Shown here: piece after piece, positions 43,656-45,662 of the stretch | Position numbering within the stretch: position 1 is the first letter of the stretch | How the letters are laid out: every line of letters starts with the position of its first letter | Source of the DNA: Nonomuraea angiospora | GTDB lineage: Bacteria > Actinomycetota > Actinomycetes > Streptosporangiales > Streptosporangiaceae | Direction of reading: 5' to 3' | NCBI RefSeq assembly: GCF_014873145.1 | Contig: NZ_JADBEK010000001.1 | Coordinates: 2,914,001 to 2,978,000 of the forward strand | DNA length: 64,000 nt | The notes under the pieces: generated by a model | What the model was told of the DNA's origin: nothing | The model's database searches: none | What the model saw: the letters and a program-made list of their open reading frames with translations, nothing else | Translations under genes and position numbers: made by a program

Positions 43656-45323
43656 CTACGCGCGGACGAACCCGTTGACGACCATCGGCAGCGACGCGTC
43701 CAGGCCCGCCACGTTCAGCACGCCCTCGTCGCCGGGGTCGCCGATCGAGTGGCCGACGGCGGTCATCGCCGCGACGACCACGCGGGCGTCCGCCGCCACG
43801 GTGCGGCGGTAGGCGCCGAGCTCCTGCGACGGGTGGGCGCGCCCCGCCCACGTCTCGTTGTCGGTGAACACCACGATGCCGTCCACCGCCATCCGCTGCT
43901 CGCGCGCCCAGCGGAACGGCAGCGACAGGTCGGTGCCGCCGCCGGACGGCTGCCAGGAGCGGATCTCGCGCAGGTTGGTGCGCGGGGTCACCTTCGAGGC
44001 GTGGACGTTGGTGTCCACGTCGATGACGTGCACGTTCCCGCGCTCGATGCGGGCCAGCATGACCGCCATGGCGCAGCCCACCTTGTACGGTGCGCCGATC
44101 GACGAGCCGCCGACCATGACGCCGCCCCAGCTCATCGAGGCGGAGGAGTCGACCGCGACCAGCAGCCGCCGGCCCGTGGGCTCGACGGAGCCGAACGCCA
44201 GCTCGTACGTCTCCTCCAGCGCGTCCCGGATCGCCGGGACCGGCGCCCACGTGTGCGCGTCGGCGCGCGGGTTGGGCTGGGCGCGGCCCGAGCCGTACAC
44301 GCGCAGCGCCAGGAACGCGTCCATCGGGTGGATGCGCGCCCGCAGCAGCGCGTCGCGGTCGGTGAGCCGGGCGACCGCGCGCCGGGTGGCCTCGCCCTTC
44401 GGGGTGAGCGTGCCGATCCGCGTCATGCGGGCCAGGTTGCGCAGCAGCGCGGTCATGCCGATCGTGTCGACCAGCGCGTCCCACACCTTCGGCTCCCTCA
44501 GCACGGCGTCCGGCAGGAACTCCCACGGCACCTTGCGCTCGGTCACCACCTGGATCGCCTCGCGGGCCGTGGTGACCGCCTTGGCGGTCAGGAACCGGTC
44601 CACCGGCTCCAGCGTCTCGCGCGCCAGCTCGTCGGAGACGTTGCCGGCGATCCAGCCGAACAGCCGCGCCCGCTGCGGGCCGTCCGCCTTGGGGTGGGCG
44701 ATGCGCAGGACGTCGCGCAGGTCGAACGTCTCGCCCTGCGGCGTCCTGCGCTGGCGGGCCTTGCACACCTTGAACGCGACGTCGTCGGGGCTGCCGGCGG
44801 AGAACCAGGAGGCGAGCGCCGTGCGCAGGGACCGGCCGGTGACCGGCGCGGTGCCGCGCGCGGTCGGCTTGCCGCCGAGGTTCTTGTAGTAGCCGAAGAA
44901 GGAGGCGAGGTGGTCGGTCGTGCGGGCCACCTTGGGCAGGGCGAGCTTGGCCGCCTGCCGGGTGGCCGCGTCACCGCGCGCGTAGGCGGCGGCCAGCGCG
45001 AACAGCGCAGGGCGCTGCTTGGGGGCGCGCGGCGGGCGCGCGGTCGAGATGCCGGTGAGCAGCTCGACGACGCGCGGGCCGTCCTCGGCGATCGCCTCGA
45101 ACAGCGCCGCGGCGTTGCCGGCGGTGAGCTGCTCCTGCGACACGTAGTAGGTGCCGCCCGTGGTGCCGAGGATCAGGAAGTCCTCGACGCGCTGCCACAG
45201 GTCCTTCTCGAAGACGTAGCCGCCGGCCGCGTTGCGCACCTGGTCGGCGCGGCCGGGCAGCGGCTGGGTCTGCGGCGTGGCGAACGCGGAAACGCCGGCG
45301 AGGGGGTCACGGTTTCGCGCCAT
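43656..45323 (-). CDS. rsr: TROVE-domain protein (Ro60/Rsr family)
   Basis: 555 residues with the two-part Ro60 architecture. An alpha-helical HEAT-like TROVE ring covers about residues 25-370 (YVFEKDLWQRVEDFLILGT, YYVSQEQLT, ALAAAYARGD, LPKVARTTDHLASFF, VPWEFLPDAVL). A C-terminal von Willebrand A domain follows with a MIDAS DSSASMSWGG near 388 and partners GGGTDLS and FTDNETW. Ro60 binds Y RNA on the outside of the ring and the 3' ends of misfolded RNA in the hole; bacterial Rsr works with exonucleases such as PNPase. The ATG at 45323 follows GAGGTGA; a GTG three codons upstream is less likely. Two Y RNAs lie directly upstream on the same strand. Confidence 0.93.
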   Translation of the reverse strand: MARNRDPLAGVSAFATPQTQPLPGRADQVRNAAGGYVFEKDLWQRVEDFLILGTTGGTYYVSQEQLTAGNAAALFEAIAEDGPRVVELLTGISTARPPRAPKQRPALFALAAAYARGDAATRQAAKLALPKVARTTDHLASFFGYYKNLGGKPTARGTAPVTGRSLRTALASWFSAGSPDDVAFKVCKARQRRTPQGETFDLRDVLRIAHPKADGPQRARLFGWIAGNVSDELARETLEPVDRFLTAKAVTTAREAIQVVTERKVPWEFLPDAVLREPKVWDALVDTIGMTALLRNLARMTRIGTLTPKGEATRRAVARLTDRDALLRARIHPMDAFLALRVYGSGRAQPNPRADAHTWAPVPAIRDALEETYELAFGSVEPTGRRLLVAVDSSASMSWGGVMVGGSSIGAPYKVGCAMAVMLARIERGNVHVIDVDTNVHASKVTPRTNLREIRSWQPSGGGTDLSLPFRWAREQRMAVDGIVVFTDNETWAGRAHPSQELGAYRRTVAADARVVVAAMTAVGHSIGDPGDEGVLNVAGLDASLPMVVNGFVRA

Positions 45324-45370
45324 GGTTTTCACCTCGTACGTCTCGACCCGCCCGAATGGCGGATGTATGG

Positions 45371-45518
45371 AAAAAAAGGGGGACGGATATGGAAATGCGG
45401 ACCGGTCTTTTACGGCGCGCTGCCACTACGCGACACGCGGAAGCACCCGCGCGGCGGGGAGTCGAACCCCGCGCTTCCGGCACCCGAAGCGATAACCGGC
45501 CTGCTTCGACCCGCCCCC
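45371..45518 (-). ncRNA. Y RNA, module B (YrlA-like, tRNA mimic), ending in an intrinsic terminator
   Basis: Read on the minus strand. The Ro-type helix pairs GGGGGCGGGU (45518-45509) with AUCCGUCCCCC (45388-45378) with one bulged base, followed by GAAG paired with CUUU, then GGCCGGUU paired with GACCGGUC. Inside lies a permuted tRNA-like fold: a hairpin CGCUUC/GGAAGCG, a T-arm CGGGG-UUCGACU-CCCCG (45471-45455), an acceptor-like 7-pair stem CGCGCGG/CCGCGUG (45453-45434) closed by a 6-nt loop, and a D-arm GCGU-AGUGGCA-GCGC (45431-45417). The GC helix is followed by seven U (45377-45371), a ready terminator 48 nt before the rsr ATG. Position next to rsr and shape agree with bacterial Y RNAs. 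Confidence 0.8.
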
Positions 45519-45530
45519 GAGGCTCGGAGA

Positions 45531-45662
45531 GGGCACGGATATGGGGGTGTCCGCCGGCGTTGGCGCTCTGCCGACTGAGCTACCGGAGCGTTGGCCCCGG
45601 GCAGGACTCGAACCTGCGACTCCCCATTAAAAGTGGTAACCGACGAACTTCGACCCGTGCCC
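45531..45662 (-). ncRNA. Y RNA, module A (YrlA-like, circularly permuted tRNA mimic)
   Basis: Read on the minus strand. The outer helix is a 10-pair GGGCACGGGU (45662-45653) with AUCCGUGCCC (45540-45531), then GUUCGUC with GGCGGAC. Inside: an anticodon-like arm with loop CUUUUAA as in tRNA-Lys, a T-arm GCAGG-UUCGAGU-CCUGC (45617-45601), the acceptor 3' strand CCGGGGC, a CAAC loop, the acceptor 5' strand GCUCCGG (7 pairs with one G-U), UA, and a canonical D-arm GCUC-AGUCGGCA-GAGC (45580-45565). The order T-arm, acceptor, D-arm is a circular permutation of tRNA, as expected for YrlA modules. It shares CGGGUCGAAG and CCAUAUCCGU with module B, 12 bp away, and has no terminator of its own, so both may lie on one transcript. 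Confidence 0.8.

Follow-up and report, generated by a model that had tools for sequence, protein, structure and literature searches.

The window analysed here, a stretch of 64,000 nt from the genome of Nonomuraea angiospora, contains an rsr gene headed by two tandem Y RNA modules, and it raises the question of how a cell matches its amount of Rsr to its amount of Y RNA. In those portions of the literature that our search covered, no explanation of such matching was found. In the following, the modules and their arrays in related bacteria are described, and attention is then directed to a small element in the rsr leader which may provide an answer.

The Y RNA modules of the rsr locus

The rsr product matches the Pfam families vWA_Ro60 (1.1e-40) and TROVE (7e-23) and, at the sequence level, the solved structures of Rsr (2NVO, E 7.3e-79) and of 60-kDa Ro (1YVP). 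The features of the gene and of the modules upstream of it are as follows.

43656..45323, minus strand: rsr, Ro60 orthologue of 555 aa, ATG at 45323 (Pfam and structure-entry matches)
45371..45377, minus strand: U7 run immediately 3′ of the M2 outer helix, may act as a partial terminator (sequence)
45379..45518, minus strand: Y RNA module M2, 140 nt, with outer Ro helix, T arm, acceptor helix and D arm (alignment, pairing, model R1)
45519..45530, minus strand: 12-nt linker separating M1 from M2 (sequence)
45531..45662, minus strand: Y RNA module M1, 132 nt (all listed pairs standard, comparative alignment, Rfam YrlA, model R1)
45662-45651 with 45541-45531, minus strand: M1 outer Ro helix
45636-45624, minus strand: M1 anticodon-arm-like hairpin, loop CUUUUAA
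45617-45601, minus strand: M1 T arm
45600-45583, minus strand: M1 acceptor helix
45580-45565, minus strand: M1 D arm

Both modules adjoin rsr, both possess an end stem with a bulged C and the conserved Ro faces CGGGUCGAAG and CCAUAUCCGU, and both contain a tRNA-like part with T, acceptor and D arms; M1 and M2 are almost certainly Y RNAs. The original prediction, made from the sequence of this DNA, had placed two YrlA-like modules with conserved outer-helix faces before a Ro60/TROVE gene, and both the faces and the modules (M1 at 45662-45531 and M2 at 45518-45379, minus strand) were recovered. Some details required adjustment: the GUUAUC run, likened there to vertebrate Y RNAs, is exact in M2 and reads GUUACC in M1, and the compensation claimed between the distal helices of the two modules holds for one pair only (C-G to G-C), the next changing from A-U to G-U.

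At curated cut-offs, Rfam gave zero matches in the window. At a permissive threshold, the YrlA search suggested with the prediction matched M1 at 41.2 bits (E 1.2e-07) and M2 at only 15.1 bits (E 4.2), both under the gathering cut-off of 69 bits; the modules were therefore assigned to the broader class of bacterial Y RNAs and not to RF02553. The M1 end stem also weakly matched the nematode stem-bulge RNA ceN72-3_ceN74-2 (E 0.011) at this threshold. A covariance model of the modules, termed R1, matched M1 (E 1e-28) and M2 (E 4.5e-23), both of which belong to its training set, and nothing else in the window. In the minimum-free-energy fold of the 292-nt region both outer helices are formed, yet the energy is only a modest improvement over shuffled sequences (z -1.94, with 7 of 200 shuffles at least as good); energy alone is thus weak proof and was not relied upon.

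It is the comparison across relatives that leads us to consider the structure of M1 and M2 real. Relatives were collected by means of the Rsr protein, yielding 36 named loci and further loci from family- and order-level genomes (Rsr matches at E up to 0.001, some of them distant, in 31 of 150 and 40 of 200 genomes, respectively), and 48 of the 53 eligible tRNA-like modules were aligned to the structure of M1. Standard pairs occupy 95.8% of the 1565 cells, compared to 79.6% in shuffled and 37-49% in slid alignments. Covariation over the whole structure amounts to 0.472, versus 0.179 when shuffled (reached in 0 of 500) and 0.087-0.123 when slid, and 17 pairs show a double change versus 14.2 when shuffled, a value reached by one of 500 shuffles. 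Covariation among relatives, without which the original prediction was to be given up, is therefore present. In the outer helix all cells (100%) are paired, and 4 of the 11 pairs are changed on both sides: the inner CGGGU/AUCCG is invariant and the outer end varies with compensation, while the G that follows the bulged C is partnered by C in 27 rows and by U in 21.

Like YrlA (RF02553), Salmonella yrlBA and the D. radiodurans Y RNA, the window modules have an end stem bearing the Ro faces, a permuted arrangement of T, acceptor and D arms, and a position beside rsr. They and the modules of relatives differ from the known bacterial Y RNAs in falling below the Rfam cut-off, in forming arrays of two to four and in the anticodon-arm-like hairpin added in many modules. 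Vertebrate Y RNAs and nematode stem-bulge RNAs share the Ro helix with its bulged C and, unlike the window modules, are devoid of a tRNA-like part; we know of no leader copy of the Ro stem in either group. The covarying arrays widen the bacterial Y RNAs past what the Rfam model detects at its cut-off.

The arms named for bacterial Y RNAs in the available part of a review are D, T and acceptor. A hairpin with a 7-nt loop of anticodon format occurs in 55 of 91 distinct tRNA-like segments, as opposed to 4.1 in mononucleotide shuffles (maximum 11); the loops include CUUUUAA in M1 and CUCAUAA, CUUCUAA, CUGUUAA and CUGAUAA in modules of relatives. Such a hairpin could possibly serve as a decoy for anticodon nucleases; that the tRNA-like part of YrlA may inhibit an anticodon nuclease is a suggestion contained in the accessible portion of PMC7790460. 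No single tRNA donor for the M1 and M2 halves was found among the 51 tRNAs of the same genome, and capture of a particular isotype is therefore not claimed for the window.

Tandem arrays in the Streptosporangiales

According to model R1, which was trained on many of the same modules, 42 of 43 distinct Streptosporangiales rsr loci carry at least two modules. The 121 matches are distributed as four modules in 14 loci, three in 7 and two in 21, the remaining locus having a single broken module; one two-module locus (L020) shows a further weak, distant match. Arrays of four begin with a minimal module and a full tRNA-like one; the third module is either reduced or a second tRNA-like one, in many cases with a long outer helix, and the fourth is again full. 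The window array consists of two full modules. The absence of the second module from close relatives, which would have spoken against the original prediction, was thus not seen. Its proposal that the tandem is an undescribed architecture did not survive, since relatives have up to four modules and the Salmonella operon rsr-yrlBA-rtcBA, as given in the part of PMC7790460 available, already holds two Y RNAs. As far as that account extends, Salmonella resembles the window in having more than one Y RNA per locus, and it differs in that its Y RNAs follow rsr, whereas those of the window precede it. The tandem itself is old and of a known kind.

It had also been suggested that M1 and M2 form one RNA of about 290 nt tethering two Ro rings or two substrates. 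Both Ro sites are indeed complete, the linker is only 12 nt long and a U-run follows only M2; against this, linker lengths vary among relatives, which carry two to four modules, and we consider such a tether improbable. The U7 run 3′ of M2 could, judging from its sequence, end a share of the transcripts; a terminator scan restricted to loops of 3-8 reported none. The one promoter candidate, a weak sigma-70-like site at 45745-45718, lies upstream of the array.

Several arrays display peculiarities. In four loci (L009, L018, L021 and L089) the module finder assigned to the middle module a very long outer helix of 28-30 bp, extending far past the Ro site. Two Spongiactinospora loci (L023 and L026) have a divergent rsr (67-68% identity), and their rsr-proximal modules and leader faces look altered; the L026 strain also carries a second locus (L012) whose array is broken. 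The genome of the window itself contains a second Y cluster at 294626-296933 (L360:3127-5434, minus strand; G000:C1) with four modules, one of them 84% identical to M1. Nearby there is only a 25-residue rsr remnant (L360 2783-2709, E 9e-5), and the cluster is a decayed rsr locus.

A permuted Y stem in the rsr leader

The interval of the original prediction, 45371-45662, encloses the modules correctly and stops just short of a further element, located between M2 and the Shine-Dalgarno sequence of rsr, which it missed:

45343..45365, minus strand: permuted Y stem, CAUCCGCC-AUUCG-GGCGGGUCGA, i.e., 3′ face, loop, and 5′ face with bulged C (sequence, descriptor)
45332..45335, minus strand: GAGG, likely Shine-Dalgarno sequence of rsr, 8 nt upstream of the ATG (sequence)

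The stem comprises seven pairs, the bulged C and the following G, and ends 19 nt upstream of the ATG, with 7 nt between it and GAGG, such that a structure resembling the target of Rsr stands at the ribosome-binding site of its own mRNA. The vertebrate Ro site, as far as described in the available part of PMC4726728, is a helix of 7 bp in which a C bulges from one strand and 3 nt from the other. The leader stem is more novel than the tandem: no prior description was found in the literature searched, a body which excluded the main bacterial Y RNA papers.

The distribution of the element was assessed with a descriptor that leaves the helix sequence free (C or U, a hairpin of at least 5 bp, then CG followed by A or G, within the last 55 nt). 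The sample comprised 262 rsr loci with 171 distinct leaders, of which two were dropped (protein <300 aa), leaving 169; the sources were Actinomycetota, one myxobacterial MAG, phages, three non-actinobacterial plasmid records and IMG/VR. Matches occur in 74 of the 169 leaders, from both bacteria and phages, versus a mean of 7.1 in shuffles (maximum 16). When a single leader per Rsr cluster is retained, the counts are 54 of 138 at 90% identity (6.2 shuffled, maximum 11), 19 of 86 at 70% (2.9, maximum 8) and 5 of 30 at 50% (1.0, maximum 3), the last being a small excess. In 72 of the 74 matches the helix is of the face type (GGGU, GGGC, GAGC, GAAC or GGGA) and ends 3-20 nt before the start codon; the two unconvincing ones are L010, from the window's clade and not face-type, and L249, from elsewhere. 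Of all 64 trinucleotides, the one most often located 3′ of such a hairpin is CGA (18 of 86), followed by CCG (14) and GCC (12), both of which may represent the same GCCGA read in a shifted register; the base 5′ of the hairpin is U in 16 cases, C in 3, A in 3 and G in 2. An earlier run with a looser descriptor had matched 58 of 96 leaders (3.8 shuffled) as well as 8.2% of 6747 other sequence windows from the same loci, arrays included. Shuffled versions of the leader of rsr in N. angiospora match in 4 of 100 cases. The energy of the leader hairpin is ordinary (z -0.24; -0.95 to +0.84 in five other leader stretches, with the L145 stretch beginning downstream of its element), and fold energy was dropped as evidence for modules and leader alike (z -1.94 and -0.24, respectively).

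By 50% clade, the descriptor matches 30 of 43 leaders in the window's clade (29 of the 43 with a face-type stem), 22 of 23 and 4 of 4 in the Streptomyces and Microbacterium phage relatives, and 12 of 17, 4 of 29 and 0 of 17 in the others, with 1 of 5 and 1 of 1 in smaller clades. A match is lacking in all 17 leaders of the L116 clade, in 25 of the 29 of the L035 clade and in 13 of the 43 of the window's clade. Repeated gain or loss of the element is probable, and its absence is as real as its presence. The 13 leaders of the window's clade include all seven of the Herbidospora group (L025, L027, L028, L030, L031, L033 and L094). In this group, the last Y RNA has in its 3′ Ro face a UCCG(U) that could form pairs with an (A)CGGA at the Shine-Dalgarno sequence of rsr, with which it overlaps, perhaps another switch.

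Changes within the leader helix were examined in 48 elements hand-picked from earlier listings, mostly because they pair, a choice with which the following values should be read. The n4 pair is C-G in 32, U-A in 13, A-U in one, U-G in one and unpaired in one, and the n2 pair is G-C in 33 and A-U in 15. Covariation is 0.632 versus 0.30 shuffled, and 63 cells show a double change versus 18, neither value being reached in 500 shuffles; counted by pair, however, double changes are not in excess (5 versus 4.3, reached in 183 of 500). In clade alignments that include all members, GCCC/GGGC becomes AUCC/GGGU in L160, and GCUC/GAGC becomes GCCC/GGGC in L205 and L216.

The leader face also usually follows the Y RNAs of its own locus. 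With modules identified by a structural finder, leader and module faces are the same in 39 of 55 loci and in 10 of 15 70%-clusters, and random pairing of leaders with loci reaches the similarity score in 0 of 2000 (loci) and 9 of 2000 (clusters) trials. The finder replaced a first script with a loose module pattern and many false modules, and it gave the stronger result: the earlier own-locus similarity was 3.33 versus 2.99 (shuffled maximum 3.19) in 75 loci, with 164 of 2000 trials reaching it per 70% cluster.

Could the leader element be a functionless remnant of a collapsed module, i.e., the 3′ half of one and the 5′ half of the next, with only the two Y RNAs being of consequence? A deletion between neighbours would yield this very order, relatives have up to four modules from which to delete, the genome of the window harbours a decayed second array, and 13 of the 43 leaders in the window's clade lack the element. 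The element nevertheless recurs in Rsr clades less than 50% identical, 3-20 nt from the start codon and with compensated helices. Moreover, R1, which may miss distant modules, detects none in the 336-1200 nt upstream of rsr in four phage loci that have the element (L145, L208, L235 and L246), and in L036 and L205 the sole module it detects lies 3′ of rsr (449 nt upstream were examined for L036). We therefore regard such an origin as unlikely.

A proposed autoregulation of Rsr

We favour instead a mechanism in which Rsr would control its own translation. The rsr operon would begin with M1 and M2, both of which carry a Ro site of their own as well as an effector part of permuted tRNA-like form, and its leader would repeat the Ro site in permuted form (3′ face, hairpin loop, 5′ face) just upstream of the Shine-Dalgarno sequence. 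Rsr without free Y RNA would bind the leader mimic and hinder the ribosome, and initiation would be blocked; Y RNAs, offering the same site, would compete for Rsr and relieve the block, and the level of Rsr would be matched to the supply of Y RNA. To this mechanism as a whole, for which we infer co-transcription, Rsr binding, repression and titration by Y RNA, we assign a probability of roughly 0.57. We also lean, if slightly, towards its broader form. In this view, Ro60 proteins of bacteria and phages would regulate their own translation via a circularly permuted Y stem located at the ribosome-binding site of rsr; the level of Rsr would be set by tandem Y RNAs acting as antagonists, and the operator would follow the face type of the Y RNAs in its own locus.

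Within the window's clade, 23 of 30 loci have a gap of 3-24 nt between the end of the last detected module and the leader stem. Such a gap leaves little room for a separate promoter, and Y module and leader site are thus probably on one transcript. Binding of a permuted stem is plausible, since the crystal of Xenopus Ro with Y RNA reportedly employed a short duplex. A probable shared transcript would equally suit a different role for Rsr on the leader, such as protecting the mRNA, guiding cleavage between Y RNA and mRNA, or loading Rsr onto Y RNAs as the protein is being made. The position of the element at the ribosome-binding site, and its occurrence there in phages with no module detected nearby, speak against these roles, which we regard as less likely still than an origin as array debris.

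The autoregulation proposed here has a familiar counterpart in the leaders of ribosomal proteins, where autogenous operators mimic the main RNA target of the protein. The likeness lies in a structure that resembles the target and is placed where ribosomes bind the mRNA of the binding protein itself; in the present case, a Y RNA takes the part of the target, its copy is circularly permuted and the repression is putative. If true, the mechanism would provide a simple, testable answer to the matching of Rsr with Y RNA, and Ro60 would read a bulged helix irrespective of which end is closed. With their dozens of naturally occurring helix variants, the leaders offer material for mapping recognition by the Ro60 family, which includes a human autoantigen.

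A wider Rsr regulon is not claimed. In the genome of the window, a loose leader pattern occurs in 26 places versus 8 in a reversed control, and a stricter pattern in a single place, the rsr leader; in 54 genomes, matches to the stricter pattern are only somewhat commoner than in the reversed control. Among phage records, 340 contain a Ro60-like match (197 from Mycobacterium and 115 from Streptomyces phages), and R1 detects Y modules in four of six phage loci examined (L114, L115, L116 and L119).
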